Shown: in pieces, positions 7,301 through 28,856 of the stretch
Layout of the letters: each line of letters starts with the position of its first letter
Position numbering within the stretch: the stretch's first letter is position 1
IMG/VR virus record: IMGVR_UViG_3300047173_000129
Span: 1-29,106 of that record
Length of the DNA: 29,106 bases
Reading direction: 5' to 3' (one strand)
DNA from: a virus
Position numbers and translations under genes: made by a program
Notes under the pieces: generated by a model
The model's input: the letters and a program-made list of their open reading frames with translations, nothing else
Databases searched by the model: none
Told to the model about the DNA's origin: nothing

Positions 7301-10004
7301 AGCCGATATAGGCGCCAGGCAGCACATTGACGGGCGTGACAATTCCGCCAGAGCCCGTGCTGGTGCCGATGGTGCCCGTCGCGCCCTCAAATTTATAGCC
7401 GCCGCCGCCGTTGGTCACGTTGCCCGAAACGATGGCGCCGCGGGAAAACGGGTTATTGTGCTGCGGCGGCCCCAGCGAATAATCCGGCGTCACGCCGGTA
7501 TCGACAAAGCTGGTCGTGCTGGTTTGCCCGATGCGCCCGGCAATATAGGTCGGAGGATAGGTCGGCGCCGTGCTTTGGATGGCGCGCGGCGACTCCGCGT
7601 AGATGTTGTAATAGGTGGCGCCTTTGACCGCGGGCCAAGACAGCGCATTGTTTGGCGTTCGGCCGCTGCCGTTGGGCGTGCCCAAAGCCTCATTGCCCTG
7701 CACGGTATAAACGAAACCGCTCTCCTCGCCGGTCGCGCCGTTCACCGCCGTCACATAGTACCAGATGATGTAAACTTGAGAGCCGCCATCCGAGCCGATG
7801 GGCGTCACCGTCAACGAGGTGGGTGCGGCCAGCGCCGCGCCAATCGCCGGCTGCGCAATCGTCCAACTGCTATCCGTCACCCGCGCGAGATCATAAGGCG
7901 GATATTCCGTCAGGGTTTCTTGGTTCCAGCAACAAAAACTCATGACATCGGCGGATTGCGTGAACTTTAGGTAGGGTAAATCCACAGCCGCCCAGGGCGT
8001 GGTCAGGGTGAAAATCCGCGCCGCCACGCCGCCCGAGGTGTAGGTGCTATAACCCGTGGAGTTGATGTTGTTGCCAAAGACATCTTGCAGCGCGAAGCCG
8101 GAGGAGGACGCGCTGGTCACCACCGCGACACGGCCATTGAGTTGCGTCATGCCGCCGATGCCCGAGAGATAAACCCAATCGCCATTGCTGAACGCCGCCG
8201 TGGCGCCGGACGTGAAATCAAACGTCGCACCGAGCCCCGTGCCCGTGCTGCTGGCTTGCGCCACCGGATTGCTGGGAAAGGCCGAATAACTGCCCGGGCT
8301 CGCCACCGTGCAGGCATTCGGCCCGAACAGCCCGAAATAGAAGCTGGCCCCCGTGCCCGAGCCGGAGGTCGAAGCCTGGGTGAACACACCGCTGGGCGCG
8401 TTGGCCGTGAACACCCCGGCCGAGGTCACATTGACCGTGGCCACACCCATGGTCAGCCCCAACTCCGCACCCGTCAGGCCGCCGCCCGTCACCGGCTCCG
8501 CCGCGGGCGTGGTGGGGTTGACCGTGTAACTCCCCGCCACCGTCAGGCTGTTGACAGCCGTGATCGTGGCGAGGTTGCTCACCGTGAACGTCACCCCCGC
8601 GCCGGAGCCAGAGGTGGCCGCTTGCGCCACAGGATTGCTTGGGAACGCCGTGTAGCTGCCGCTGGAGGCGAAGGTCACAACGTCCGGGCCAAACAGCCCG
8701 GTAAAGGTCGCACCCGTGCCAGAGCCGCTTGTGGCGTTCTGGGTGAAGGTGCCGGCGGTGGGGTTGGCCGAGAAAGCCCCGCCCGCCGTGAAGGTGAACG
8801 TGTTCACCCCCATGGTCAGGCTCAGCGTGGCCCCGGACAAGCCGCCGCCGGTCACGGGCTCCGCCGACAAGGTGGTGGGGTTGACCGTGTAGCTGCCCGC
8901 CACCGTGAGCGCCGTGATCGCGGTCAGCACCCCGCCGGAGGAGATCGTCCCGGTCGCCTGAAATTTCGTCCCCGTCCCGGTCGTGCCGGTGAGCGTGACC
9001 GCCCCCGGCGTGCCCCCCGTGCCGCCAGAAGCGATGGTGGGCACGCTGGAGACCTTCGTGGTGGAGATCGTCACCACGGGTGCCGCGGTCGTGCTGCCCC
9101 CGCCCAGCGTGATCGTATTGCCCGGCGCGTACCCCGTGCCCGCCGTCAGGCCGGTCAGGCTCAGCAATTCCGTGCTGGTGACGCTCAGCACCGCCGGGCT
9201 GGTGAAGGTGCCCCCAGCCAGCGTCACCGTGTCGCCTGGCGCATAGCTCGCCGTCACGCCGCCATTGTTCGGGCTGGCCGACTGGCTGCCGGTGATCGTC
9301 ACACTCGCCTGAAATTTCGTCCCCGTCCCCGTGGTGCCCGTCACCGTGGCCGTGCCAGGCGTGCCCCCCGTCCCGCCGGCAACAATGGTAGGCAGCGCCA
9401 CAACCTCCGTGGTCGCCACCGTCGCCACCGCTTGGCTGGTCTGCGTGCCGCCGGAGAGGTTGATCGTATCGCCGGGCGCGTAGCCGGTGCCGTTGGCGTT
9501 CACCTGCACCGAAAGCAGTTTGGTATTCGTCACCTGCACCATGGCCGGCATCGAATAGGTGCCGCCCGCCATCGTGGCCACCTCGCCAGGCGCGTAAGAT
9601 TGCGCCACCGCGCTATCAACCGGCGTCACCGTCTCCGCCCCGGTGGCCGTCGCACTCACCACCGCCGGATTGGCCTTGGTAATGCCCGTGATGCCCACGG
9701 ACACGTCCGTCACATAAGCCCCATCGGAAATGACGCGCATATACTCGTTACCGAATTCCAACATCAAACCTTGATTGATGTTGAACTGGAATGAAATCAG
9801 CCGCGGCGGATAAGACTGCCCGGTCTGCTTGGAGTACCCGACAAACGCCGTGCCCGCCCGGCTGTTCGCGCCGCCCCTGTAGTTGACATACATATTGCGC
9901 ATCGTGGACGCGCAGGACGCATATTTTTCAGTCTCCGTGCGGCCCCAAAGCTGGGGCGACAACTCCCCGCCCAAAAAGCTGTTTTTGATGTAGGGAACTG
10001 CCAT
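4356..10004 (-). CDS. giant T7 gp12-like tail nozzle protein (tail tubular protein B) with internal repeats
   Basis: 1882 residues, over twice the 794 of T7 gp12. Residues 1 to 100 carry the family start: FLGGELSPQLWGR, a Y-x-x-C-x-x-x-R-N pattern, a GGANSRAGTAF segment, then FQFNINQGLMLEFG and YMRVISDGAYV. Residues about 135 to 600 are an insertion of Gly/Thr/Val-rich beta repeats in two families. A fibronectin-like segment lies around 725 to 770. The conserved beta-propeller-like core resumes near 940 (VGYFQQRRFYAS) and runs through GLIALTGRQAWQLTG to VERTING and MIERMDNRFW near 1190. The last roughly 300 residues look Ig-like and jelly-roll-like (PPSVGF, W-T-N-T-T) and may be surface adhesins. 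It follows adaptor genes and precedes the gp13-like gene, as in T7. In the virion it should form the tail tube and nozzle, with inserts facing outward. The ribosome site is weak. Confidence 0.85.
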   Translation of the reverse strand: MAVPYIKNSFLGGELSPQLWGRTETEKYASCASTMRNMYVNYRGGANSRAGTAFVGYSKQTGQSYPPRLISFQFNINQGLMLEFGNEYMRVISDGAYVTDVSVGITGITKANPAVVSATATGAETVTPVDSAVAQSYAPGEVATMAGGTYSMPAMVQVTNTKLLSVQVNANGTGYAPGDTINLSGGTQTSQAVATVATTEVVALPTIVAGGTGGTPGTATVTGTTGTGTKFQASVTITGSQSASPNNGGVTASYAPGDTVTLAGGTFTSPAVLSVTSTELLSLTGLTAGTGYAPGNTITLGGGSTTAAPVVTISTTKVSSVPTIASGGTGGTPGAVTLTGTTGTGTKFQATGTISSGGVLTAITALTVAGSYTVNPTTLSAEPVTGGGLSGATLSLTMGVNTFTFTAGGAFSANPTAGTFTQNATSGSGTGATFTGLFGPDVVTFASSGSYTAFPSNPVAQAATSGSGAGVTFTVSNLATITAVNSLTVAGSYTVNPTTPAAEPVTGGGLTGAELGLTMGVATVNVTSAGVFTANAPSGVFTQASTSGSGTGASFYFGLFGPNACTVASPGSYSAFPSNPVAQASSTGTGLGATFDFTSGATAAFSNGDWVYLSGIGGMTQLNGRVAVVTSASSSGFALQDVFGNNINSTGYSTYTSGGVAARIFTLTTPWAAVDLPYLKFTQSADVMSFCCWNQETLTEYPPYDLARVTDSSWTIAQPAIGAALAAPTSLTVTPIGSDGGSQVYIIWYYVTAVNGATGEESGFVYTVQGNEALGTPNGSGRTPNNALSWPAVKGATYYNIYAESPRAIQSTAPTYPPTYIAGRIGQTSTTSFVDTGVTPDYSLGPPQHNNPFSRGAIVSGNVTNGGGGYKFEGATGTIGTSTGSGGIVTPVNVLPGAYIGSIYIYNAGSNYTQGDTLTINANGSGGSGATATLTIGPESGTYPGVVGYFQQRRFYASTQNNPDTYWASQTGLYLNFDTHFPTVNNDALTGSPWAIAVDGIQWLIAMPGGLIALTGRQAWQLTGPGGSSQNPQPITPSGQEAQPQMFNGISATVFPIRIDDEVIFVQSKGSIYRMFKYQYFYNIYTGNDITEFSTQLFIGHQIVQHAYAEEPYKVIWSVRDDGILLSMTYFSVQQITSWARHDTNGNFVGVATITELPVDAPYLAVERTINGQTSYMIERMDNRFWPVAEDVWAVDAGVQMPLTYPAATLNVSSPTGTGSLTGVTNLVGGSGYASDTAVLIVDNNGLGPGAGATASVSISGGVITAVNFTAAGSGYIYPQISFVDPTNSGSGASCEAILNNSATITASAAVFTANSVGDIIRTGGGIAVVTAYTSSTQVTGNILVPITTLYQNSGTPSGYPAVQPQTAGNWSMTTPTQTVTGLWHLIGVPVTGLADGNVIPPQVVSAQGTITLPAPATLITVGLGFTAQLQTAYFDAGPQGASQGRRKRVSAVTARIELSEGILVGTNQPDGSTLSPPQIAPFWQGLTSLPNPRVPPYNYTVSPLFTGDVRIPVPGNYDTRGQVAFQQSNPLPMNVNAVVTEIMDGDLEAGSRGGQPAGGGNTLSGDTGFYFALTNYPPSVGFTSPPTTGDLNVPINFTGVVYPAGQPVQIAFGASGSIPPEGGWTNTTVTQGTWSGSLTPTSSGNIYVWARQTNNVSVLAVVGPVNILQPGAPVIVQHVSLADFNTTQTLTLPNPVGIGNTLFLVTMVAANTPLSISGFTFIQGSSTQTATYYQNITSSAQNSATIPAFGSSGSSNWCASLYEISGVTSFGPYEQTGSAAGNVASINAFGATNAAPSLYYGVVTSLGVTVGVPTQNWSAALPAGAVILSCLYANADFEGTSICAGEWYLPNGNGTQNMSITSEQTLALHGPFGLQVVGTVV
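8220..8924 (-). repeat. repeat family B in the nozzle gene, two copies of about 113 codons
   Basis: Residues 361 to 473 (8586..8924) and 482 to 595 (8220..8561) are two copies offset by 121 residues. Each has LTVAGSYTVNPTT, EPVTGGGL, a LTMGV strand, a TSGSGTGA segment, a GLFGP turn and AFPSNPVAQA in the same order. The family differs in sequence from the A repeats that come immediately before it in the protein, so the insertion is a composite of two duplicated modules. Confidence 0.85.
8955..9599 (-). repeat. repeat family A in the nozzle gene, two copies of about 98 codons
   Basis: Protein residues 136 to 233 (9306..9599) and 253 to 350 (8955..9248) are two copies offset by exactly 117 residues. 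Both end in a GTTGTGTKFQA block preceded by GGTGGTPG. Each copy itself contains two half-repeats of about 38 residues starting YAPG followed by a strand and a GG-T or GGGS turn, so the pattern occurs four times. The DNA is also similar: the segment encoding KFQA is nearly identical at 8957 and 9308. This points to fairly recent duplication in a beta-structured stalk. Confidence 0.85.
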
Positions 10005-19243: not shown

Positions 19244-19260
19244 CCTAACTCGCCGTTAGG
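19244..19260 (-). other. hairpin across the stop codon of the major capsid gene
   Basis: CCTAAC and GTTAGG form a perfect 6-bp stem with a 5-nt loop, covering the TAA stop of the capsid gene (19256..19258). It is followed by AAATC rather than a U-tract, so it does not look like an intrinsic terminator. An mRNA-stability or processing role is possible. Confidence 0.45.
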
Positions 19261-20296
19261 TCACGGTGGCTTCCGTATTCAATATCTGGTCCACGATTTT
19301 GATGGGGATGCCGCGATAGCCGTCAATCGGCACCCCGGCATAGTCCTCGATGCGCAACAGCACGTTGCGATCACGCATCGCCTGCACGTCCATCCAGTGG
19401 CGCGTCGTGCGGTTGCAGTAGAACACCGGCCGCACGGTCGCCTCCATCGTGGCGTCCGTCTTCACGATGCCCGATGTCTTGGCCGACAGCTTGGGGAACA
19501 GAAGGAGCATCTGCGCCATCAGCGCGAACAAATCCGGCGCGTTCGGCCCGGCCAGCCCGGCATTGGTCGTGTCGATATTGGCCAGCCGCACGCCATAGCG
19601 CCAATCCTTCGGGCAAAGCCCGGTCTGCTGGCGGAACCACGAGGTGTACGCCTCAAAGCGGTTGCCGAGCGAGTCAACGCCCGGCGTCACATCGCCCTTG
19701 TCCTCCATCGCCAGCCCCGCCTGGCTGCCGCGCGGGAACAGCGCGAAGATCGACTCCGGCCCCCAGCCAATCAGCCACAACGAGGTGTTGCTGGTGCCCG
19801 TGCCGCCGCCCGAAAGCACGTTCGCCGCGTTCTGCGCGTTGGCGGTGGAAACCGTGTTGTAGAAGGTGGACAGCCCCATGAAGGTGGCCGGATTGGCGAA
19901 GGTGTTGCCGTAGATGAAGGTCTGCACAATGGTCTGCGACATCCCCTCCAGGAACGCCACGTCTTCGGACTCCCGGAACTTCTCCTTGTCCCCCGAATGC
20001 TCAGCCAGCGCCCGGTCAACCTGGCTGTAATCCTCCAGCATCCCCAGGCCCACCCGCGCCTTGGCGGTGGTGGACTTCGCATAGGGCACGCCGCGGTTAT
20101 ACTGGCGCCACGCCCCGGCCGGAATCGAGGTGCGGAACACGAACTCATGCCCGGTATTCTCGTTCGCCTCCACATACGGCAAATCATCCTGGAAATCATT
20201 GCACTGAGACAACATCTCCGCGATGATGGGAATGTTGCCGCTCTTGTCCGTGCGCAGCGCGACATCGACAAGGGTGGGCCAAGCGCCGGTTGCCAT
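19256..20296 (-). CDS. Bbp17-like major capsid protein (HK97 fold)
   Basis: 346 residues that follow the BPP-1-type major capsid pattern. The start has WPTLVDVALRTD and a MLSQCNDFQDDLPYVEAN helix-strand, followed by TGHEFVFRTSIP and a LEDYSQVDRALAEHSGD segment. ESEDVAFLEGMSQ and TFIYGNTFANPATFMGLS lie near 120 and 140. The C-terminal part has NTSLWLIGWGPESIFALFPRGSQAG and DWRYGVRLANID. This order (strand RT, LEAY-like, FLEGM, YGNT, G-L, WGP-FPKG, DWRY-RIANID) is conserved in this capsid family. The upstream neighbour is the scaffold and the downstream neighbour the cement protein, as in BPP-1. ATG 20296 has a strong GAGGAG site, 8 nt upstream. It forms the icosahedral shell. Confidence 0.9.
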   Translation of the reverse strand: MATGAWPTLVDVALRTDKSGNIPIIAEMLSQCNDFQDDLPYVEANENTGHEFVFRTSIPAGAWRQYNRGVPYAKSTTAKARVGLGMLEDYSQVDRALAEHSGDKEKFRESEDVAFLEGMSQTIVQTFIYGNTFANPATFMGLSTFYNTVSTANAQNAANVLSGGGTGTSNTSLWLIGWGPESIFALFPRGSQAGLAMEDKGDVTPGVDSLGNRFEAYTSWFRQQTGLCPKDWRYGVRLANIDTTNAGLAGPNAPDLFALMAQMLLLFPKLSAKTSGIVKTDATMEATVRPVFYCNRTTRHWMDVQAMRDRNVLLRIEDYAGVPIDGYRGIPIKIVDQILNTEATVT

Positions 20297-20339: not shown

Positions 20340-21248
20340 TCAGTTGACGCCCCGTTGGGCGTAGATCGACCGCAGCCCGCCGGACGGCGCGCGGCCATTG
20401 CCCGGCGGCGGTTTCGGCGATGGCGGGGGCAAACCCGGCTCATCGACATAGCGCGCGGCCCGGTGGAGCAATTTCAGAAACAAGGGATGATCCCCGGCCC
20501 CGGTCATCGCGGCGAATTCGTTGAACGCCTGCGCATCGGCGGCATATTGCGCCGTGCCGGGCTTGGCATCCGAGACCAGCGCATCGCGCACGCGCGCAAT
20601 CGCGCCCATCGCCGTGTTGTGCCCGGCCCCGCCCAAACGCGGGTCCGCCATCACTTCCTTGCGCCAATTCTCGCGCGTTTCGGCAAAGGCGCGATGCTGC
20701 ATCTCGGCCAACTGCGCCACCGCCGCCTGCTGAAACGCTTGCAGGCTGGCCACATGCAAATCCAGAAGCTCCTGGCCGACCTCGGGCGACACCCGATGCT
20801 TGCCCAGCACCTCGTTATATTTGCCGAACGCCTCCTGATCGGCCGGCAGCCCATCGGGCAATTTCCAGTCGGGATAGGCAATCGGCTCCGGCGCCACGGG
20901 CTCCGCAGGTGCGGCGGCTTCGGCGGCGGGCTTGGCGGGCTCGCCCGCCGGGGCATCGGCGGCGGATGGCCCCGGCGGCGCGTCCGCGGCGGCCGTGGCG
21001 TCAACCGGCGCAGCCGCGGGAGGTACAAGACTCGCCGGCGGCTCCGGCGCCTTGAGCGTCGATAAGAGGCTTGGCGTCTCGGTGTGCGGCGCAAAGGCGG
21101 GGGCCGGGCTGGGTGCGGCGCTGGGTGCCGGAGACGGGGTATCAGAGGGGAGCGGACTCGGCCCGATGGGCGCTGCCACGGCCTCTTGCGACACCCCGCC
21201 ACCAGCCAGGGTGTCAGGCACCAGCGGCGGTGCGCCCGTGCCCGACAT
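20340..21248 (-). CDS. head scaffolding protein
   Basis: 302 residues. The first 120 are Pro/Ala-rich and disordered, with PAPA-type repeats. The core from residue 125 has YPDWKLPDGLPADQEAFGKYNEVLGKH, then SPEVGQELLDLHVASLQ and a charged helix ending ENWRKEVMADPRLGG. This 'LPEG, D-x-x-x-x-F, E-x-A-Q-x-L-x-D-L, W, D-x-x-x-G-G' order is what I expect of scaffolds of BPP-1-like heads. The C-terminal LLHRAARYVDEPG helix and a basic tail suit binding to capsid protein. It comes just before the capsid gene. It should fill the prohead and be lost on maturation; the disordered N-terminus is unusually long. Confidence 0.72.
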   Translation of the reverse strand: MSGTGAPPLVPDTLAGGGVSQEAVAAPIGPSPLPSDTPSPAPSAAPSPAPAFAPHTETPSLLSTLKAPEPPASLVPPAAAPVDATAAADAPPGPSAADAPAGEPAKPAAEAAAPAEPVAPEPIAYPDWKLPDGLPADQEAFGKYNEVLGKHRVSPEVGQELLDLHVASLQAFQQAAVAQLAEMQHRAFAETRENWRKEVMADPRLGGAGHNTAMGAIARVRDALVSDAKPGTAQYAADAQAFNEFAAMTGAGDHPLFLKLLHRAARYVDEPGLPPPSPKPPPGNGRAPSGGLRSIYAQRGVN

Positions 21249-21655
21249 TACGCGGCCCGCCGGATTTTAACCGGCTTGGCAAAATTCGGATCGTTCTCGG
21301 TGTGCATGGCCGCCACCGTGATGGGGTCGCGCCGCAGCCAGGTCTGGTAGAGCCGTTGCCCAACCGCCTGTTCGCCGGCGTGGAACCACGTCGCCTCAAC
21401 TTGCGGAAACCCGTTCGGCCCGCAGGCAAACCGCTCCTCAAAAGCGTGCGTCACCTGCAACAGCTTCCACATCTCCCGGCGACCAACGGCGGAACGAAAC
21501 ACACCCGCCCAAAACGCCTCCGCCTCGTCCGCTTCGCGCTTGGCCTGATCGCCCGCGCGCTTGATCGCCGCCGGGTCAATCGCGTTGGCCAAACCCTTAT
21601 CCGTTGGCAGGTCAGCCGCCGGCACGTCATCGGGCAGGTCATCATCCTCCATCAT
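21248..21655 (-). CDS. Bbp19-like head-module protein, 135 aa
   Basis: An acidic start (residues 1 to 45), then AEAFWAGVFRSAVGRREMWKLLQVT, a FERFACGPNGFPQVEATWFHAGEQAVGQRL segment and a basic end. The pattern 'F-x-x-x-x-x-S-x-x-G-R-R-x-x-W-x-x-L, T-x-x-x-x-x-F, F-x-x-G-x-x-x-x-G-x-x-L' matches the Bbp19 family, a small protein of BPP-1-like phages of unknown role next to scaffold and capsid genes. The gene overlaps its neighbours at both ends, so it is translated together with the scaffold. Confidence 0.7.
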   Translation of the reverse strand: MMEDDDLPDDVPAADLPTDKGLANAIDPAAIKRAGDQAKREADEAEAFWAGVFRSAVGRREMWKLLQVTHAFEERFACGPNGFPQVEATWFHAGEQAVGQRLYQTWLRRDPITVAAMHTENDPNFAKPVKIRRAA

Positions 21656-22197
21656 GGCATGATGATCCCGGAGGGCAGCCGCTTGGGGTTGAGCGCGTTG
21701 GCGGGCAAATCATTATGCGTGCGCGGCCCGTTCCGTTCGGGCACCGGCTCCGGCGCTTTTTGCGCTTGGATCGCACCGTGCGGCCAAACGACCTGCACCG
21801 CGCGATCCTGCGTTTTGATCGGGCTCGCCAGCGGCTCCGGCAAAATCATCCCCACCCGGCCGGTCGCGTTGTGCTGGAGATCGCGCGCCGTCATGGCCAG
21901 CATCCGCAAATTCTCAGCCAGCATCAGAAACAGCTTGCGCGGATGAAAGCCCCGCAGCCAGTTGCCCGCGCGCTCATGCGCTTCGTGCATCATCAACCCA
22001 ATGGGCAGCCAACGCGTATCCTCGCGCCACGCGCTCGCCTGGCGGCACGCGCCCTCAATCAACCGCAGCCGATGACGCAGCGAATTATAGGTGGGGCCGG
22101 CGGCGGGCAAAACCGCCAACGCCTCGCATTCCTCGGCCGCAAGGGTCAGGTTTTCGGACAAGCACGAGAAGATTTCAGTCTCGGTCAAAGCGCCCAT
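21652..22197 (-). CDS. conserved phage protein before the scaffold, 181 aa
   Basis: A helical protein with MGALTETEIFSCLSENLTLAAE, then SLRHRLRLIEGACRQASAWREDTRWLPIGLMMHEAHERAGNWLRG near residues 45 to 95 and a KLFLMLAENLRML helix. The last 60 residues are Pro-rich and likely disordered. The 'EGACRQA-x-WR-x-x-RWL-x-IGL-x-M-x-x-x-H-x-x-AG-x-WLR' pattern is one I associate with unnamed proteins of podovirus head modules. The frame extends to a TTG at 22224, but ATG 22197 fits better as it starts the conserved TETEIF part. It is the first gene of the main structural operon. Confidence 0.65.
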   Translation of the reverse strand: MGALTETEIFSCLSENLTLAAEECEALAVLPAAGPTYNSLRHRLRLIEGACRQASAWREDTRWLPIGLMMHEAHERAGNWLRGFHPRKLFLMLAENLRMLAMTARDLQHNATGRVGMILPEPLASPIKTQDRAVQVVWPHGAIQAQKAPEPVPERNGPRTHNDLPANALNPKRLPSGIIMP

Positions 22198-22222
22198 TCG
22201 CCTGCATAGGACGCCGTTATTC

Positions 22223-22247
22223 AAAAAAACAAGCCGTCATTGCGGCT
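22223..22247 (-). terminator. hairpin with U-tract in the leader of the structural operon
   Basis: On the minus strand, AGCCG, a 6-nt loop and CGGCT form a perfect 5-bp stem followed by TG and seven T residues. This has the form of a small intrinsic terminator. It lies 26 nt before the first gene of the structural operon. It may stop minus-strand transcription coming through the island from the right, or act as an attenuator in the operon leader. Confidence 0.45.
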
Positions 22248-22250
22248 GTC

Positions 22251-22266
22251 GTTATGGGATGTTATG
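22251..22266. promoter_or_regulatory. GTTATG direct repeats with 10-bp spacing between divergent operons
   Basis: GTTATG occurs at 22251 and again at 22261, one helical turn apart, in the short gap between the divergent operons. Repeats in register on one face of DNA often bind a regulator; the HTH protein encoded next to it is the obvious candidate. No clear promoter could be fixed here for either side. Confidence 0.3.
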
Positions 22267-22313
22267 CCTCATGGGGGTAAATTAGAAAAAATGAGCCTGA
22301 TAGGAATATAGTC

Positions 22314-22559
22314 TTGCGAAACGCGCCCGCCGACGCCCTTTCCATCAAAGACATTCCGCTTTGGCTGACCCGCAAACAGACGGCCAGCTACCTCACCAGC
22401 CGCGGCATCCCCATGTGCGAAGGCACCCTGGCCAACCTGGCCGCCAACAACAATGCTGGTCGGGGTCCGCCTTTTTATGTGACGCGGGGCACGCGCGTGA
22501 CCTATAACCGCGATGAGCTTGCCCTTTGGGCGGCCATGCAATTCGTGAGGGTCGAATGA
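22314..22559 (+). CDS. small excisionase/AlpA-like HTH DNA-binding protein
   Basis: 81 residues. The core WLTRKQTASYLTSRGIPMCEGTLANLA, followed by GPPFYVTRGTRVTYNRDELALWAA, is a MerR-superfamily winged HTH of the HTH_17/excisionase type: recognition helix start TL, wing G-x-x-V-x-Y and a final D-x-x-x-W. The start is TTG 22314, with AGGA about 8 nt upstream. Such proteins serve as excisionases or transcription activators. Here it is the first gene of the divergent plus-strand block, next to a repeat-bearing gap, so control of the island or of the structural operon is a reasonable guess. Confidence 0.75.
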   Translation: MRNAPADALSIKDIPLWLTRKQTASYLTSRGIPMCEGTLANLAANNNAGRGPPFYVTRGTRVTYNRDELALWAAMQFVRVE

Positions 22560-22774
22560 ACAGCGAGCAATGCCTCAAAGCCGCCATGCAGGCCCTTTTG
22601 AGGGGCGACATCGCCGAGCGAGACCGGCTCTGCGATGCGGCCGAAAAAGCCACGCAGCGCGAGGAGATGGAGGAAAAAGCCAGGGCCACCGCAAAAATCT
22701 TGACCGTCGATTTTTATGTCCACGCGGACGGACGGGCGGTGGAGACCAAAAAAATGTATGCCGCGGCGCATTAG
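22556..22774 (+). CDS. hypothetical protein coupled to the HTH gene, 72 aa
   Basis: Starts at ATG 22556, overlapping the stop of the HTH gene by ATGA; an upstream in-frame start at 22526 would lie deep in the HTH gene and is less likely. It begins MNSEQCLKAAMQALLRGD, has a charged helix (RLCDAAEKATQREEMEEKARATAK) and ends in a strand TVDFYVHADG with a GRAVETKK hook. No family is recognised. The tight coupling suggests it acts with the HTH protein. Confidence 0.6.
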   Translation: MNSEQCLKAAMQALLRGDIAERDRLCDAAEKATQREEMEEKARATAKILTVDFYVHADGRAVETKKMYAAAH

Positions 22775-22787
22775 GGAAGATCGAACC

Positions 22788-23036
22788 ATGAGCGCCGTCA
22801 CCACCGAGAGCTACCTCGCTTTGTCCCGTGAAGCCTCCCGCATTGCCGCCGCCTGCGTCATCGAACTCCAAACCATCCCCTACCACCTCACCCGCGGCTT
22901 CGCCGATCAAACCATGTGGCGCCGCAAAGCCGACGAAATCATGGGCGCGGTCGAACTCGCCGCCCAGGTCGCGCAGCAAGGCAACCTCGATTACGCCTAC
23001 GACATCCTGTCGCGCACCCACCTCCCAAAATTGTGA
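22788..23036 (+). CDS. hypothetical small helical protein, 82 aa
   Basis: Starts at ATG 22788, after a GGGAAGA stretch; an open frame upstream to 22716 is in the coding region of the previous gene and is left out. The protein is helical with SYLALSREASRIAAACVIELQ, a QTMWRRKADEIMGAVELAAQ helix and a short LDYAYDIL segment. No family is recognised. It is the last gene before the terminator at 23116. Confidence 0.6.
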   Translation: MSAVTTESYLALSREASRIAAACVIELQTIPYHLTRGFADQTMWRRKADEIMGAVELAAQVAQQGNLDYAYDILSRTHLPKL

Positions 23037-23115
23037 ATTGACGGCCCCGGGCCGCCGTGCGACACCCAACTTGTCCTGCGGGCTTGTCCCCCGCTTCGTC
23101 CTGTCTTGAGAAACA

Positions 23116-23146
23116 CCCTCGGCCTGCCGCCGGGGGTTTTTCTTTT
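23116..23146 (+). terminator. intrinsic terminator of the HTH operon
   Basis: CCCTCGGC and GCCGGGGG form an 8-bp stem (one T:G pair) with loop CTGCC, followed directly by TTTTTCTTTT. This ends the three-gene HTH transcript and separates it from the glycosyltransferase operon. The 80 bases between 23037 and 23115 hold no gene that I can support. Confidence 0.85.
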
Positions 23147-23167
23147 GTGGATAACGTGGCTGTAAGG

Positions 23168-23195
23168 TTGCCGCATCCGCAGGTTGTGTTAAGAT
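23168..23195 (+). promoter_or_regulatory. probable sigma-70-type promoter of the glycosyltransferase operon
   Basis: TTGCCG, a 16-bp spacer and TAAGAT, with a TG one base before the -10 (extended -10). Transcription would begin a few bases after 23200, giving a short leader with AAGGA 7 nt before ATG 23220. Its place right after a terminator and before a new operon supports it. Confidence 0.5.
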
Positions 23196-23219
23196 TTGAA
23201 CCAGGACAAGGACACCGAC

Positions 23220-23921
23220 ATGAGCCCAAACCTCAATAAAAAAGCCAAAATCGAGGCGCAACAACTGCTGGCCGAATTGCTGCCCGCCGCGCGCGCCGAC
23301 GCCATCGCCTTCGCGGCCGATCCAGAATTCAGCTTTGAAATGGTCTCCGGCGTGGGCAAAGCCGCCTTGCCCTACATGCGCGAGGACAATTTCGCCGGCA
23401 TCCACATCTACCGGGCCCCCTTGGGCGGCTTCCATTGCGATCTTGTGCTCAAAAAAGTGCCGCCAGGCGTGGCCAACACCTTCGGCTCGCCCGTTGGCGC
23501 GCCCCTGCCCACCCGCGAGGAAGCCCTTAAATACGCCCTCCAGGTCCTGACCGGCGTGCTGGCCGCCGTCCTTAAACACGCGCCCAACCCAGCCGACACC
23601 CGGCCCGTGTTCGAGTTTTTCGGCTTCGACCTGCCGATTGACGAAACGCTGTTGGCCGCGGCGGAAAAAGTCGGAGACAACATGGCCAAAACGCTGGGCC
23701 GCCCGCTCACGCCCAACGACATCGACGAAATGCTGGCCGACATGGTTGCCGAGCATTTCCCGCGCGGCCTGACGGATGGCTTCATCCCCAACCGCCCTTT
23801 CAAAGAAAAGGCCCAAGTCACCATCTGCATCCACCTCGCCGCCCTCTGCGGCGTGTTCCGCTACCCACCGCTGCCGGACGGCACACCATCCGCCCACAAG
23901 CCGCATGAGACGCGCCAATGA
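23220..23921 (+). CDS. unrecognised 233-aa protein, first gene of the glycosyltransferase operon
   Basis: A soluble protein without signal or membrane segment. The N-terminal 60 residues are helical (KAKIEAQQLLAELLPAARADAIA). A strand-rich centre follows with NFAGIHIYRAPLGGFHCDLVLKKVPPG near residues 57 to 83, then a TREEALKYALQVLTGVLAAVL helix, DTRPVFEFFGFDLPID near 126 and a C-terminal helical part. I know no family for it. ATG 23220 is chosen because AAGGA lies 7 nt upstream; a TTG at 23196 would abut the promoter -10. It overlaps the glycosyltransferase gene (ATGA), so the two are translated together and may share a pathway. Confidence 0.6.
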   Translation: MSPNLNKKAKIEAQQLLAELLPAARADAIAFAADPEFSFEMVSGVGKAALPYMREDNFAGIHIYRAPLGGFHCDLVLKKVPPGVANTFGSPVGAPLPTREEALKYALQVLTGVLAAVLKHAPNPADTRPVFEFFGFDLPIDETLLAAAEKVGDNMAKTLGRPLTPNDIDEMLADMVAEHFPRGLTDGFIPNRPFKEKAQVTICIHLAALCGVFRYPPLPDGTPSAHKPHETRQ

Positions 23922-24619
23922 CCCCCAACATCCCCCGCGCCATCCACCGCATCTGGATCGACCCGAACGATCCCGAACGCCCCTCCGCCCCGCCCCCGGA
24001 CGTGCATGAAAACATCGCCTCCTGGATGGGCGCTTACCCCGACTGGCGCCAGACCACCTGGACCTATGCCGGCCTGCTGCGCATCGCCCAAGCCTATCAC
24101 CGCCCCGATGTCGGCAAAGCCATGACCGCCTGCGCCTTCCCCGCCATGATCGCCGATCTCGGCCGCCTCCTGCTGCTGCACATCTTCGGCGGCGTCTGGG
24201 TGGACCTCAAAGTCGGCCTCCTGGAGCGCCCGCCCGTCTTCGAGGACCCCAACCAAACCCTCATCCTCACCGAACATTGGCCGCAACCCAACCTGCCCAT
24301 TCCCAACGGCCGCATCACCAACTCCGTCATCGCCGCGTGCGGCGGCCACCCCATCATCAAAGCCGCCCTCCTCCGCGCCGCCTACAACGTCAACTCACGC
24401 CTGGACGCCTCCATCTACCACGTGACCGGCGCCACCAACCTCGACGTGGAAACCGCCAAATACCGTTTTCGCAACCCCAGCATCCAAATCCAGATCATCC
24501 CCCACCAACTCGCCTGGGGCACCTACTTCGAAATCCGCGGCGGCTCCTACAACGGCGAGCGCAACCACTGGAGCCTGCGCGAACAGCGCGAGCCAATTTA
24601 CCGGGATATGATGACATGA
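23918..24619 (+). CDS. glycosyltransferase, capsule-synthesis/GT32-like
   Basis: 233 residues. The start IPRAIHRIWID matches the 'IPK-x-IHQIW' strand of nucleotide-sugar-binding GT32-type enzymes. Near residue 79 comes ADLGRLLLLHIFGGVWVDLKV, equal to the conserved 'SD-x-x-R-x-x-x-L-x-x-x-GG-x-x-x-D' block that holds the sugar-nucleotide and metal site. Here Asp96 is present but the second Asp of a D-x-D is Lys98, closer to capsule-type enzymes with D-x-T. A NSVIAACGGHPIIKAAL segment follows, as in the family. It should move a sugar to an unknown acceptor: host surface polysaccharide, a virion protein or modified DNA. The ATGA overlaps on both sides show full coupling. Confidence 0.8.
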   Translation: MTPNIPRAIHRIWIDPNDPERPSAPPPDVHENIASWMGAYPDWRQTTWTYAGLLRIAQAYHRPDVGKAMTACAFPAMIADLGRLLLLHIFGGVWVDLKVGLLERPPVFEDPNQTLILTEHWPQPNLPIPNGRITNSVIAACGGHPIIKAALLRAAYNVNSRLDASIYHVTGATNLDVETAKYRFRNPSIQIQIIPHQLAWGTYFEIRGGSYNGERNHWSLREQREPIYRDMMT

Positions 24620-24885
24620 CCAAAAACGCCCAAATCACCATCTGGTTCAAAAGCAACCCCGAAACCGCCCTCTACGAATGCTGGGTTGGCATCCTGCAAA
24701 AACCCAACAACGCAGGTATGCTTGGCGCCGTCTCAAACTATGCCGTCTCAGACTGCCCCGAGCTACGCGAACAATGGAAAAAAATCATGACCGACATCTT
24801 CATGTTCAACCTGAAACAAATGGACCCCACCTGCCAATACGTCTCAGTCCCCATCGGCTCGCTCGCCAGCGGAGGCAACGCATGA
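24616..24885 (+). CDS. hypothetical protein, 89 aa
   Basis: Starts at ATG 24616 by ATGA overlap with the glycosyltransferase stop; the longer open frame upstream is a shadow of that gene. It reads TKNAQITIWF, then YECWVGILQKPNNAGMLGAVSNYAVSDC and a REQWKKIMTDIFMFNL helix. It looks like a small alpha/beta protein with three Cys. No family is recognised. Confidence 0.55.
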   Translation: MTKNAQITIWFKSNPETALYECWVGILQKPNNAGMLGAVSNYAVSDCPELREQWKKIMTDIFMFNLKQMDPTCQYVSVPIGSLASGGNA

Positions 24886-25142
24886 GCAAGCATGTCATTG
24901 GCGCCGGCTCCCTAACGTTTCGGCGCAACGGCGATATGTGGGAATGCCACACCATCAGCCCAGACGGCGACAAATCACGCCTCATCGGCGCCATCCACAT
25001 GGCCCTTGTGGCCACCGACGACCCGCTCATCCGCGATCAATTCGTGGAACTTATGAAACGCGGCTTCTTGTTCGCCATGCAAAAAGCCGCCGGACTCGAA
25101 GATTTGCGGGCCGAGTTTTCAGAGGAAAGGCCCGTCAACTAA
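24882..25142 (+). CDS. hypothetical protein, last gene of the island, 86 aa
   Basis: Starts at ATG 24882 by ATGA overlap, with a GGAGG site 6 nt upstream. It begins MSKHVIGAGSLTFRRNGDMWECHTISPDGDKSRLIGA, a beta hairpin-like start, then has a helix with FVELMKRGFLFAMQKAAGLEDLRAEF. No family is recognised. It stops 3 bases before the end of the convergent minus-strand gene; I see no terminator in the gap. Confidence 0.6.
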   Translation: MSKHVIGAGSLTFRRNGDMWECHTISPDGDKSRLIGAIHMALVATDDPLIRDQFVELMKRGFLFAMQKAAGLEDLRAEFSEERPVN

Positions 25143-25145
25143 ACC

Positions 25146-25454
25146 TTAAACCGGCTTCTCATCCTCAAAATGCTTCAACACCCGGTTATGCTCAAGAGCC
25201 TCCCGCGTGTTGGCCGCCAATTTCCGATAGGCGTCCGTTTCCTTAGTTGTCATCATCGCATGATAAATTTCCGCGTCCGCCACCTGACTCTGCGCAATGC
25301 GATCCGCCAAAACCACGCGACCACATTCACGCAACGCCTTTTCTGCATATTCCAAAGCAATACGCTTGGAAATCCACAAGCCAGTTACAGCCAACGCAAG
25401 GTCATACTGCGAATCGCTCGCCTGAAAAATAATTTTTTTGCGCGTAAATTTCAT
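25146..25454 (-). CDS. AT-richer hypothetical protein, 102 aa
   Basis: A helical protein starting MKFTRKKIIF, with an ALAVTGLWISKRIALEYAEKALRE helix, a VADAEIYHAMMTTKETDAYRKLAANTREALEHNR helix and an acidic end. ATG 25454 has a GGAG site 8 nt upstream. Its 3-prime half has clearly lower GC (about 43 percent in 25381..25440) than its neighbours, suggesting later arrival. No family is recognised. Confidence 0.6.
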   Translation of the reverse strand: MKFTRKKIIFQASDSQYDLALAVTGLWISKRIALEYAEKALRECGRVVLADRIAQSQVADAEIYHAMMTTKETDAYRKLAANTREALEHNRVLKHFEDEKPV

Positions 25455-25487: not shown

Positions 25488-25709
25488 TCACTTAAACGGC
25501 GTCATCACCCCCACCCGCCCCATCGAAATATTCTTGGCACCCCGCACCTGGCTCTGCGGCAAATCCCAAATCTCACTCGTCTCGGTTATGATCACCTTGT
25601 AAAGCGTGTCCGCCTCCTGCCCATAATCAATCAGCGCAAACGCAAACCCATCGCCCTTCACCGTCCGCACCGGCAACATCGGATCAAGCTGGAGAAGCTG
25701 CTGGCTCAC
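25488..25709 (-). CDS. small portal-linked conserved phage protein, 73 aa
   Basis: A beta-rich protein with LLQLDPMLPVRTVKGDGFAFALIDYGQEADTLYKVIIT, then SEIWDLPQSQVRG and NISMGRVG. The 'LDP, KG-x-G-x-A, IDYG-x-E, E-x-W, P-x-x-x-V-R, N-x-x-x-G-R' order recurs in small proteins next to podovirus portal genes in my memory; no function is known to me. It starts with GTG 25709, overlapping the portal stop by GTGA, so translation is coupled to the portal. Confidence 0.65.
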   Translation of the reverse strand: MSQQLLQLDPMLPVRTVKGDGFAFALIDYGQEADTLYKVIITETSEIWDLPQSQVRGAKNISMGRVGVMTPFK

Positions 25710-27643
25710 GAGCCCGGCAGCCCACCAGCCCCACCCGTCAACGCGCTCAGCGCCGTCCCCCCGCCCGTACTCGTCTGGCTCAGCGTGTGCGCCGCCTGCA
25801 CCGCGGCCATCAAATTCTGCGGCTGCTGCGCCGCCGCCTGCGCCTGACTCCGCGCCTGGTCATGCTCCATCACCTGATCATCGGTAAAGATGCACGAAAT
25901 CGGATAGCTGTTCAGGCTCGCATATTCCCGCATCGCCTTATCCAAATTCAAAATCCGCAACGGATTCGGCAAACCCGCCGCCTGCGCCGCCGACGCGAGC
26001 GCCCCACCCGTGGAGAACACATCCTTCATCGCCACCGACTCCGCCGATTGCTGCGCCAGCCGCATGATCGACGTGAAATTCACCTTCAACGGCACATTCT
26101 TGAGACTGTCCGGCAAGGGATCAATCATCCGCCGCCGAATCAAAATATCCAAAACCCGCTGAATCGCCGGACCCGCGAACTCCGTCTCAAACAGGCTGAT
26201 AAACGGCCCCAAAACCTGCAACCGCTCCAAATCCCGCTTCGTCAACTCCAACTCATTGCGCGGCTGCACACCCTCCATATTCGTGATCGCCATGAAAATA
26301 TCCACAAACAAACAACGCTGGAGCCGCTGACTCACCATCTCAATGTCCGCCGTAATCCCCTGCAACCAAGCCGGATTCGGCTCAAAAAGCGGCCAAAAAC
26401 CCTTTTGCCCGTTCGCCGTCGAGGTGTACGTGATATGCCCCGGAATAATGCTCGCCGGCTCGTTCTTCATCTCCACGCTCGCACCCATCGGCGGGCGCAC
26501 ACCCTTTTCAATAAACTCCGCCTTGCGCCGCGTTTCCAACTGTATCTGCTTGTTATCCCCCAACGCATCCATGCACGGGCTGCGCCCATACGCATCATTG
26601 CTCACCGTGCTCCACCGCGCCGCCATGAACGGAGACGACCGAAACCCACGCGCCGACAAAGGCTGATCGCTCTTATTCCCCCGCAGCCAGTAAATCTCCC
26701 GATAGGTGAACACATCCGGCACCATGCTGCCGCTCTCCTGCGTCCTCCCACCACGCGCCGTTATCTTGAAATTCGGCTCTATCGAATGCGCAACAACCAC
26801 CTCCTGGTCTATGCTGCTGCCCCCATCCATCCACAACCGCTTCACATCATCCGGGCAACACTCCAAGGTGAACATCTCCACCACCTGCGCCACCGTCAAC
26901 GTGAATTCCCGATACAACGTATCGACAGACAAACGACTCCCAATCGCCAAATAATACTCGCCCGCGCACGGCAAATAACACCGGATCACATCCTCAAAAT
27001 CCTCGTAAATAATGACCGGCGCCGTGCCAAACAGCACCACATCCGCAAACGCCTGCGCCATCACATTGTAAAAATTGCTCTGCGCCAGAACCACATAGAG
27101 CTTCTTCTGCGTCGTCTCCAGCCATTGCAGCGCCGCATCATCCGCCGTCATCCAACTCAGCGCAATGTCCAACTGAAACCACGGCCGGCTCGGACTCGTC
27201 AGCCCCGTCCACAAACCCGACGCGCACGTGTTCAACGCCTGCAAGCCCGTCGAATCAATAATCTGATCGTTGATCGGATTGCCCCGCCACGTCCGGTTCG
27301 CAACCGCCAACCACAAATACCGCCGTGGCGAAAAATACTCCGCGAGCTTGGACCAGTACACCCACCAGCTATACCGCCACGTCTTCAACGCATTCAGCCG
27401 GCTCTCACAATGCGCATAGGTCTCCGCCCACCACTTCTTCACCTCCCCCGGCCGCCGGGCCCGCGCCTCCGTCACCGGCTGCCGGCTCAACAGCGTGGAC
27501 GACATCATCTCATACGGCGCCCCCGCCATCCCAGGATCAACACTCCCCCGCGGCTGCCGGTTGCCCGCTCCAGGCACACCACCCGGCCCCGCCGGCGCGT
27601 TCCCACTCCCCGCCCGCGGCCCGTAACTAATCCCGTCAGGCAT
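25706..27643 (-). CDS. portal protein (T7 gp8-like head-tail connector)
   Basis: 645 residues, slightly longer than T7 gp8 (536). After a Gly/Pro-rich start of about 45 residues comes the portal pattern: ESRLNALKTWRYSWWVYWSKLAEYFSPRR, then INDQIIDSTGLQALNTCASGLWTGLTSPSRPWFQL near 120, a FYNVMAQAFADVVLFGTAPVIIYED segment near 185 and VDTLYREFTLTVAQVVEMF. The centre has SARGFRSSPFMAARWSTVSNDAYGRSPCMDALGDNKQIQ. This is the podovirus head-to-tail connector family, which forms a 12-mer ring at the packaging vertex. The last 60 residues are Ala/Gln and Gly-rich. ATG 27643 has only a weak ribosome site and overlaps a 21-codon frame. Confidence 0.92.
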   Translation of the reverse strand: MPDGISYGPRAGSGNAPAGPGGVPGAGNRQPRGSVDPGMAGAPYEMMSSTLLSRQPVTEARARRPGEVKKWWAETYAHCESRLNALKTWRYSWWVYWSKLAEYFSPRRYLWLAVANRTWRGNPINDQIIDSTGLQALNTCASGLWTGLTSPSRPWFQLDIALSWMTADDAALQWLETTQKKLYVVLAQSNFYNVMAQAFADVVLFGTAPVIIYEDFEDVIRCYLPCAGEYYLAIGSRLSVDTLYREFTLTVAQVVEMFTLECCPDDVKRLWMDGGSSIDQEVVVAHSIEPNFKITARGGRTQESGSMVPDVFTYREIYWLRGNKSDQPLSARGFRSSPFMAARWSTVSNDAYGRSPCMDALGDNKQIQLETRRKAEFIEKGVRPPMGASVEMKNEPASIIPGHITYTSTANGQKGFWPLFEPNPAWLQGITADIEMVSQRLQRCLFVDIFMAITNMEGVQPRNELELTKRDLERLQVLGPFISLFETEFAGPAIQRVLDILIRRRMIDPLPDSLKNVPLKVNFTSIMRLAQQSAESVAMKDVFSTGGALASAAQAAGLPNPLRILNLDKAMREYASLNSYPISCIFTDDQVMEHDQARSQAQAAAQQPQNLMAAVQAAHTLSQTSTGGGTALSALTGGAGGLPGS

Positions 27644-27704: not shown

Positions 27705-28844
27705 CTACCCGCCCTCTTTCAAAATTATCAATTCCGACATGACCGCGTGATGGGTATTTTTCATTGGAACCAAATCAACTTTGAAACCATGCTTTGACGC
27801 CAAAGCCCGAACCTCCGGCGCGTCGTTATAGGTGGCCATTGCGCGTCCTCTAACTGATGCGACGGCGGCAAAAAGTGCCTCGTGATTGACCTCGTTGTGC
27901 TCATAGAGGCGTTTCCCGGCGCTCTTGCGCCCGGCTGTATATGGCGGATCAATAAAGAAAACCGCCGCTTGGTCATCGGCGTGCGCCTTAATGAGATCGA
28001 AAGCGTCCGTCTGGTGAAAGGCAACGCGCTCCCGAAGCGTTCGCAAAAACTCAATCCGGCGGGCCAAGGTTTCGGGATACCAGCGAGAGGTAAGACCGTG
28101 GTCGTTTTCGCCCCGTTTAATCAAACCCGCACCTTTTGCCATGATGCCGCCGCGCTGCATCCGGTTTCTAATTATCGTTTGAAAAGCCGCATCAATCCGG
28201 TCCTTTGGCTCAGATCGCAAAACTGCTTCGACAGATTCGAGGTTGACTTTAAACATCCTTATGCGCCGGCACAAAACCGCCACATCAATGTCGCGCCCAC
28301 CAAAAATCAGGCTCCATACCGCAGAAACACCTTTGTCCAACTCGCCAAGCTCAACGCGGCAACATCGGTTTTCCGCCGCCACAGTCAGGCCGGCCATCGC
28401 GCCACCAGCAAACGGCTCAACAAACACAAATGAATCGCCGGAAAACGACGACAGCCAAGCCCGAAGGCGCGGCATAAGCCACGTCTTGCCGCCAGGATAC
28501 CTAAATGGGCTTAACTGACGCACTTGCGCGACATTTACCACGGGAAATAACGCTTCCGCCGCCGTCACCGGCCCCTCCACATCCAAAAATCCCCATTCAC
28601 TCTGCGGCCGCAACACCTCCTCACAAACCACCCCACACGCCACCCGCAGCCGATCCCGCCGGTCAGCCACAAATCCACCCCCACACGCCACACAAACCCT
28701 CACCACATCATCAACCCCAGACGCCGCCCGATACGCCTCCCGACACGCCGCCGAACAAAACCGCCCCCTGGTCACAACCCCACCACACATGTCGCAGCCC
28801 GCCACAGGCCGCTCCCACGCATCCCCCCGCATCGGCCTGCCCAT
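27705..28844 (-). CDS. adenine-specific DNA methyltransferase (D12/Dam type) fused to two N-terminal zinc modules
   Basis: 379 residues. Residues 17 to 74 hold eight Cys as two units, CX2C-X9-CX3C (17, 20, 30, 34) and CX2C-X15-CX3C (51, 54, 70, 74), likely zinc knuckles. The D12-class catalytic domain begins at 112 with SPFRYPGGK, then FVEPFAGGA (141 to 149, AdoMet site), an IIRNRMQRGG segment and FFIDPPY (catalytic DPPY at 299 to 302). It should methylate adenine N6 in DNA, protecting phage DNA or marking it for packaging. I choose ATG 28844: an AGGAGG site lies 8 nt upstream, inside the previous stop region; GTG 28853 is the alternative. The catalytic part has lower GC and no C-over-G bias, unlike the N-terminal part and its neighbours. 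Confidence 0.88.
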   Translation of the reverse strand: MGRPMRGDAWERPVAGCDMCGGVVTRGRFCSAACREAYRAASGVDDVVRVCVACGGGFVADRRDRLRVACGVVCEEVLRPQSEWGFLDVEGPVTAAEALFPVVNVAQVRQLSPFRYPGGKTWLMPRLRAWLSSFSGDSFVFVEPFAGGAMAGLTVAAENRCCRVELGELDKGVSAVWSLIFGGRDIDVAVLCRRIRMFKVNLESVEAVLRSEPKDRIDAAFQTIIRNRMQRGGIMAKGAGLIKRGENDHGLTSRWYPETLARRIEFLRTLRERVAFHQTDAFDLIKAHADDQAAVFFIDPPYTAGRKSAGKRLYEHNEVNHEALFAAVASVRGRAMATYNDAPEVRALASKHGFKVDLVPMKNTHHAVMSELIILKEGG

Positions 28845-28856
28845 CACACCCACCTC

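Follow-up and report, generated by a model that had tools for sequence, protein, structure and literature searches.

What is a block of seven small plus-strand genes doing inside the head gene cluster of a phage, and is it part of the virion-building program or cargo? The question arises from the window, the whole 29,106-nucleotide stretch of viral DNA analyzed here, in which seven plus-strand open reading frames occupy positions 22314-25142 and the surrounding head cluster lies entirely on the minus strand. The first-pass annotation, which described this strand interruption correctly, took the block for a moron carrying a glycosyltransferase (GT) between the portal and scaffold genes. The placement holds, with the qualification that m102 and m73 intervene on the portal side, and m190 and m135 on the scaffold side. 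The features are, in order of position:

19256-20296, minus strand: MCP, head cluster.
20340-21248, minus strand: protease/scaffold-like gene, head cluster.
21652-22197, minus strand: m190, conserved head-cluster gene and one border of the slot; homologues lie directly downstream of the portal gene in L004-L006, L028 and L053.
22198-22313, no strand assigned: divergent leader between m190 (minus) and the island; 91% mean column identity with L027 and L109; holds the ribosome-binding-site-like ATAGGAA of A81.
22314-22559, plus strand: A81, small HTH protein of excisionase/MerR-like type by homology, TTG start; leader gene of the slot.
22556-22774, plus strand: B72, open reading frame, ATGA-coupled to A81.
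22788-23036, plus strand: C82, small protein without assigned function; 57% identical in L027.
23115-23137, plus strand: intrinsic terminator dividing the island into two transcription units; folding z -3.0; conserved in L027.
23220-23921, plus strand: D233, partner gene of GT; 47% identical in L027, C-terminal piece in L026.
23918-24619, plus strand: GT, 233-aa glycosyltransferase of DXD/capsular-synthesis type by Pfam and homology.
24616-24885, plus strand: F89, small protein, diverged paralogue of G86 (BLASTP E 2e-5).
24882-25142, plus strand: G86, small protein with a counterpart in L026 (BLASTP E 5e-10).
25146-25454, minus strand: m102, open reading frame between island and portal; absent in L026.
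25488-25709, minus strand: m73, small conserved phage protein overlapping the portal stop; homologues in relatives.
25706-27643, minus strand: portal, the other border of the slot; PHROG 332 head-tail adaptor (E 2.5e-114), 33% identity to the eps15 and phiV10 portals.

First, we evaluated whether the island frames are genes. Five of the seven are kept as proteins in relatives (A 90%, C 57%, D 47%, GT 77-78% and G 31% identity), so the strand assignment is not a chance product of GC-rich sequence, and dN/dS of the conserved frames lies between 0.09 and 0.45. The frames of B72 and F89 are less well supported: B72 is missing from L027, where C82 directly follows A81, and F89 is missing from L026, although its paralogy to G86 supports F89 as a gene. 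L027 does not preserve the 447-aa frame that runs antisense to the D gene. The island encodes two 233-aa proteins, D233 (ATG at 23220) and GT. The three ATGA overlaps attributed to the second operon are present at 23918, 24616 and 24882, and a fourth, at 22556, joins A81 to B72. The terminator folds better than 200 of 200 shuffled sequences, and its counterpart in L027 folds more strongly still (z -4.2). Of the terminator, HTH gene and promoter with which the block had been credited, the first two stand; the case for the promoter is weak, since the single sigma-70-like match found stops 1 nt short of the start codon and does not exceed chance. The stretches 5' of A and of D are well conserved.

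Second, we compared the interval between portal and m190 in related records, which carry eps15-type head genes and whose nearest cellular relatives are found in Rhizobium and Hyphomicrobiales genomes. The block is absent from L006, L053 and L004, where the portal-m190 gap measures 15, 30 and 87 bp, respectively, and in L028, a Rhizobium BK313 prophage, the gap is 278 bp. L066, also a Rhizobium prophage, lacks this cargo. Among 31 records that span the site, 19 carry an A81 homologue, which as a rule lies opposite to the late genes, and their intervals measure 0.35-5.2 kb; in the 12 that lack the HTH gene the interval never exceeds 1.15 kb. In L094, L097 and L107 the m73 homologue itself lies inside the slot, on the cargo strand, and a relative of C82 (31% identity) in the L107 slot is likewise on the cargo strand. 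Only two other contigs carry copies of the window-type GT operon, which gains and loses genes even within the window's own lineage of three phages. The empty or short sites, the different cargo in relatives and this gain and loss together support cargo status: the block, far from being kept by all relatives, is wholly missing from several of them, and other cargo sits at the same point.

One of these other cargos belongs to a second lineage, in which an unrelated family-2 glycosyltransferase (GT2) and a methyltransferase/GT9-like protein stand behind the same HTH gene; this cargo is start-stop coupled to that gene in L069, L072 and L076. Its relatives of at least 55% identity are, wherever the record reaches far enough, all in the slot behind the HTH gene. 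The GT2 of L069 and L082 matches PHROG 13126 (phage beta-1,4-glycosyltransferase, moron category), and relatives of this type occupy the slot of L070, L072, L076 and L081; the family differs from that of the window GT, and the two are independent cargo. The two glycosyltransferase lineages stand apart on the MCP tree, and some other cargo in the slot is not glycan-related. This wider pattern, in which one HTH family heads a slot whose cargo is exchangeable and time and again includes a glycosyltransferase, goes beyond the one first described.

Two changes on the MCP tree suffice to explain the records without A81, and we accordingly dropped frequent independent jumping of A81; we claim turnover of cargo rather than frequent jumping of the HTH gene. 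Phase-variable inversion of the whole island was rejected as well, there being no long inverted repeats and A81 adjoining m190 in both orientations. The suggestion that the four genes of the second operon form an undescribed system is weakened: F is absent in L026, where the counterpart of G86 is ATGA-coupled directly to GT, and in L027 the G86 counterpart is a short remnant near a serine recombinase. The constant parts, as judged from these sequences, are therefore the HTH gene, D and GT, not a four-gene unit.

A81 is strongly conserved (90% identity in L027, where the start is ATG; dN/dS 0.09), and its family bears the signature WLTRKEAAxYLT...NNNAGxGPPF. The family profile matches the recombination directionality factor RdfS (8dgl) with E 0.0025, a value at which artificial helical-repeat chains score alike; matches of A81 to PHROG 66 (excisionase/regulator, E 0.07) and of its L107 homologue to TIGR01764 (E 0.08) are weak, and the profile of 23 homologues is too variable for a pattern scan. 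D233 has no significant match in Pfam, PHROG, NCBIfam, PADLOC, phage records or 297 genomes of the order, nothing convincing among PDB sequences and, within viral contigs, no relatives other than the L027 protein and the L026 piece; its AlphaFold2 model, built from 2 sequences, has a pLDDT of 41, too low for use.

Profile and alignment matches place GT as a homologue of bacterial DXD/capsular-type glycosyltransferases. It matches PF04488 (Gly_transf_sug) with E 1e-3 and 20.2 bits, below the curated cut-off of 23 bits, and PF05704 (Caps_synth) with E 1.6e-3, also under the cut-off; its nearest bacterial homologue, in L049, passes PF04488 with 27.8. GT is 28.9% identical to a Paracoccus glycosyltransferase (E 1e-12, 87% of the query covered) and has homologues in 8 of 297 genomes of the order (E 4e-10 to 9e-7). 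A search of genome contigs by conserved patterns gave no match, and the distant homologues were recovered only through whole-genome and plasmid searches. The DxxR...GG(I/V)(Y/W)xD core aligns with bacterial members of both families (OCH1-like and capsular), and GG..D, D80 and R83 are fully conserved across the three phage copies, under purifying selection. Unlike those families, GT is a stand-alone 233-aa protein with Lys for the second Asp of the DXD motif: the three phage copies all read D96-L-K98 at this position and the nearest homologue D-M-G, and most alphaproteobacterial homologues at greater distance have D-x-D. Because this Asp is missing, GT activity is not certain. The AlphaFold2 model of GT, from 3 sequences, is unusable (pLDDT 33). 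No transmembrane-grade segment is present in A81, C82, D233, GT or G86, the highest 19-aa Kyte-Doolittle mean being 1.78, in GT. The closest bacterial GT found adjoins a mannose-1-phosphate guanylyltransferase and a sulfotransferase, that is, polysaccharide synthesis.

Based on these observations, we propose, with roughly even confidence for and against, that the island is an accessory (moron) cassette in the portal-m190 slot whose GT cargo remodels host envelope glycans and thereby brings about superinfection exclusion. A81, divergent from the late genes, heads the slot, where it is likely to control a small operon of its own; the terminator then sets apart the second operon, D-GT-F-G, which runs against the head genes. 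With the phage resident in the cell or infecting it, a soluble GT would add a sugar to a cytoplasmic precursor of a host envelope polysaccharide (LPS/O-antigen or capsule), D, F and G may serve as partner or specificity proteins, and related phages could then fail to adsorb to the altered receptor. The dN/dS of GT, D and G (0.40-0.45), far above that of MCP (0.035), is as expected for interaction genes. Counting for exclusion are the use of one site by two unrelated glycosyltransferase cargos, the empty or short sites with long cargo only where the HTH leader is present, and the polysaccharide-synthesis neighbors of the closest bacterial GT. Counting against it are the incomplete DXD, the lack of a flippase, lipid-linked GT partner or evident transmembrane segment, the scarcity of integrases among long relatives, and the failure to identify a promoter with confidence.

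The layout resembles that of prophage moron loci such as STMMW_20121 in Salmonella prophage ST64B, which lies opposite to the late genes in its own transcription unit, is absent from relatives and is not structural (PMC7067206); prophage accessory loci are described as characteristically oriented against the lytic genes (PMC7067206). The present locus differs in being an entire slot, headed by a conserved HTH gene and divided into two transcription units. Seroconverting prophages employ enzymes such as glycosyl- and acetyltransferases (PMC12373910), and the GtrABC cassettes of P22-like and Shigella phages are likewise phage-borne glycosyltransferase operons with a proposed effect on O-antigen and receptor (PMC3688519). 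The island GT is of another family and appears soluble, and neither a GtrA flippase nor a GtrB bactoprenol transferase was found among the seven proteins in Pfam or the six scanned (all but B72) in NCBIfam; a Gtr seroconversion cassette was rejected because these partners are missing. The phage shares portal and capsid kinship with the eps15-like podoviruses (Salmonella phage eps15 and E. coli phiV10) and differs from them in its Rhizobium and Hyphomicrobiales connections and in that several relatives measure 62-67 kb; by portal, no close relative was found among 50,697 phage records. Among 11 long relatives, tyrosine integrases occur in two, serine integrases and ParA in none, and a temperate lifestyle is not established.

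The main rival, possible though on the doubtful side, is that GT, with D, F and G, glycosylates the phage's own virion proteins, for example of capsid or tail, to protect or tune the particle. The island sits inside the head cluster, phage glycosyltransferases have been proposed to act on capsid proteins (PMC11256854), and the GT2 of the slot resembles SunS, a protein S-glycosyltransferase (E 2.7e-8). L181, a very distant eps15-like relative, encodes a GT2 immediately between portal and scaffold and on the late strand, an arrangement more in keeping with late expression and modification of the virion than with exclusion. The window operon, however, opposes the late genes and has its own terminator, relatives without it have the same head genes, and some cargo at the same slot is unrelated to glycans. 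Both functions named at the outset, a change of surface sugars and decoration of the virion, are plausible readings of the sequence.

We consider it unlikely that the island is a host-takeover or counter-defence module, in which the target of a GT-like protein would be a host protein, nucleotide sugar or small molecule, or in which that protein is no longer catalytic and serves in binding. The missing second Asp would suit such a role, as would F and G, small paralogues that vary from one relative to the next, as the genes of anti-host sets do; against it stand the purifying selection on GT, whose core is fully conserved across the three copies, and the PADLOC defence families, which match none of the seven island proteins. 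The only weak PADLOC match is to m102, and membership of the island in a defence system was rejected. Finally, that the block is a fixed functional part of the phage group, such as a morphogenesis factor, is highly improbable: the HTH gene and leader are strongly conserved in the nearest relatives, but portal adjoins m190 in L004, L006 and L053, and nearly so in L028, unrelated cargo is found in other relatives, and the empty sites refute this reading for the block as a whole, leaving it possible only for the HTH gene.

Returning to exclusion, a broader version, which we offer tentatively and regard as rather improbable, is that a Hyphomicrobiales phage group keeps a dedicated exclusion-cargo slot in its head cluster. 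The conserved HTH gene would serve as address and switch, perhaps also as a recombination handle, cargos that are repeatedly unrelated glycosyltransferases would be exchanged behind it, and D-GT-F/G would represent a new soluble, flippase-free form of receptor masking. The portal-m190 interval and its HTH leader provide a sequence address for the systematic collection of exclusion and host-modification genes in rhizobial phages. They also open to experiment the question whether a soluble phage glycosyltransferase can, in the absence of Gtr-type flippases, alter the receptor in soil alphaproteobacteria, bacteria for which surface polysaccharides are important in plant symbiosis too.

The window's eps15-type head genes (portal, protease/scaffold-like protein and major head protein, MCP) all lie on the minus strand of this 29.1-kb virus record. 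The portal matches PHROG 332 (E 2.5e-114) and is only 33% identical to those of the nearest named phages; the nearest relatives in cellular genomes are Rhizobium sp. BK313 (63%) and a Hyphomicrobiales MAG (62%). Seven plus-strand genes, named by a letter and their length in amino acids apart from the glycosyltransferase GT, occupy the slot between portal and the head-cluster gene m190, exactly where the first-pass annotation placed them:

22198-22313: leader, well conserved among the three nearest phages
22314-25142, plus strand: A81 (HTH, TTG start), B72, C82, terminator, D233, GT, F89 and G86, in this order
23115-23137: terminator
27705-28853, minus strand: D12-class adenine DNA methyltransferase (PF02086, E 1e-10), immediately upstream of portal

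Two minus-strand genes, m102 and m73, separate G86 from portal. The three ATGA overlaps previously assigned to the second operon become four in the whole island: A-B, D-GT, GT-F and F-G. Comparison with L027 and L026, the other carriers of the D-GT operon, supports plus-strand coding for five of the seven putative genes: A81 (90% identity in L027, dN/dS 0.09), C82 (57%, L027), D233 (47%, L027), GT (77–78%, both) and G86 (31%, L026). Third codon positions are the most changed in each of the five, and a 447-aa antisense frame over D233 is not kept in L027. Since B72 is missing from L027, its coding status rests on frame and overlap; F89, missing from L026, is supported by frame, overlap and paralogy with G86 (BLASTP E 2e-5). 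The terminator folds far better than shuffles and has a counterpart at the same place in L027, which bears out the earlier prediction; terminator-like sites as a class are no more frequent in the region than in shuffled sequence. A promoter belonging to the island, also claimed earlier, could not be called, the sole consensus match being too near the start codon and at chance level. The stretch upstream of D233 keeps a conserved block, GGTTGTGTTAAG.

Portal and MCP searches yielded more than 80 related contigs, of which 31 records (near-copies included) contain both borders of the slot. The first-pass annotation had suggested looking for relatives without the block, and such relatives exist: portal and m190 are on one strand and 15, 30 and 87 bp apart in L006, L053 and L004, respectively, and 278 bp apart in the Rhizobium BK313 prophage. 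An A81 homologue lies within the interval in 19 of the 31 records, with interval lengths of 352 to 5152 bp, against at most 1146 bp in the 12 records lacking it. The accessory status of the block is thus well supported. When records without a portal end are included, 24 have A81 on the strand opposite portal; the six that have it on the portal strand form one clade on the MCP tree. Simple inversion of the whole island is rejected, because A81 adjoins m190 in all cases, in either orientation, and long inverted repeats at the island are absent. The side of portal bearing the D12 methyltransferase is also variable, since L026 carries different genes there. A related 65-kb phage encodes a phosphoadenosine phosphosulfate reductase auxiliary gene (L141:11008-12060, minus strand; PHROG 424, E 1e-63).

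The slot content among relatives is as follows:

(i) D-GT operon: window, L027, L002/L026
(ii) family-2 glycosyltransferase (PF00535) behind A81: L069, L070, L072, L076/L080, L081, L082; also L150 and L151, found in a separate scan
(iii) other slots: small unknown genes; a GIY-YIG protein (L068); large portal-strand proteins; A81 alone (L052, L060)
(iv) late-strand family-2 glycosyltransferase with portal and scaffold as its direct neighbours: L181, a very distant eps15-like phage (portal 26%)

The composition of the D-GT operon changes even among its three carriers: L027 has no B72, couples A81 directly to C82 and retains after GT just a G remnant, near minus-strand genes, and in L026 G is coupled directly to GT. 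One of those L027 genes encodes a serine recombinase (8239-8868, minus strand; PF00239, E 2e-43) close to the operon, where the L027 sequence diverges from both the window and L026; no such recombinase was found in 13 other related records. In the second class, A81's stop codon overlaps the glycosyltransferase start in L069, L072 and L076, and the L069 enzyme matches PHROG 13126 (moron category, E 6e-24). A methyltransferase follows in L069, L070, L076, L081 and L082 (the records reaching that far and read), and in those scanned it has a weak part of heptosyltransferase (GT9) type. PF00535 matches occur in 8 of 30 records searched whole, seven of them in the slot; relatives of this glycosyltransferase with at least 55% identity, where the record is long enough, are all located in the slot and preceded by A81. 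Large proteins of about 400–900 aa are encoded in the portal-scaffold interval of L056, L057, L058, L097, L105, L010 and L011, on the portal strand after portal. Several have a secretion-signal-like start, and a Pfam scan of four (L056, L057, L097, L105) gave no match.

Some small proteins encoded in or beside the slot include short segments similar to structural proteins of the same phage; two further portal fragments (L008, L097) are located elsewhere:

L108:5058-5348, minus: MCP 292-338-like piece (Pfam GP7, E 1e-5)
L095:4135-4485, minus: MCP 292-316-like, then portal-like YGRSPAMDAL piece (portal part by eye)
L106:512-799, minus: Tat-like signal as in L095/L108; RFEAYT stretch by eye
L064:125-220, minus: MCP 195-226-like piece
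L060:3271-3741, plus: MCP 199-222-like, then MCP 85-116-like
L008:468-755, plus: unrelated 95-aa frame that opens with a portal 361-395-like stretch
L097:13704-14402, plus: apparent endolysin that ends in a portal 374-406-like stretch

The Tat-like signal RRxFxTGLISLVAAPAIVRA precedes the MCP-like piece in L095 and L108. Fresh duplication is rejected as the origin of the fragments in or beside the slot, since their DNA identity to the phage's own gene is only about 62–68%. Such capsid- and portal-fragment mini-proteins could act as decoys in assembly or as dominant-negative inhibitors.

GT itself matches PF04488 and PF05704 below cut-off, and 87% of its length aligns to a Paracoccus plasmid glycosyltransferase (E 1e-12), which is itself above the PF04488 cut-off and neighbours mannose-1-phosphate guanylyltransferase and sulfotransferase genes. 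Homologues at E 1e-6 or better occur in 8 of 297 host-order genomes, all inside open frames of 540–1087 aa. Because the core motif D80..R83...G91-G92..D96 is retained and the second Asp of DXD is replaced (all three phage enzymes have Lys98, the Paracoccus one Gly), enzymatic activity is probable rather than certain. Structure prediction, based on three sequences, gave no usable model.

Glycosyltransferase-bearing phage morons are already known. As far as literature and databases show, what is new is this group of phages, a slot between portal and m190 that combines a single conserved HTH leader with exchangeable cargo, and D233 as an orphan partner; no publication describing the slot was found, which is weak evidence given partial literature coverage.

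Glycosylation of the virion by the slot glycosyltransferase is a less likely alternative, supported by the block's position inside the head cluster and by the late-strand enzyme of L181. We infer the role of the cassette and favor a change of host envelope polysaccharide, because: (i) unrelated glycosyltransferase cargos recur in the slot, one with a methyltransferase/GT9-like partner; (ii) the GT homologue sits in a polysaccharide cluster; (iii) the operon is transcribed against the late genes, a position characteristic of prophage accessory loci (PMC7067206); and (iv) GT, D233 and G86 evolve faster than MCP. Counting against this reading, a temperate lifestyle is not proven: among 11 long relatives, two have a tyrosine integrase and none a serine integrase or ParA. 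Seroconverting prophages use enzymes such as glycosyl- and acetyltransferases (PMC12373910). The known Gtr cassette requires a flippase and a bactoprenol transferase (PMC3688519); since neither was found in the window's island, we propose that a soluble GT would act on cytoplasmic precursors. The altered envelope polysaccharide of the host would result in superinfection exclusion.
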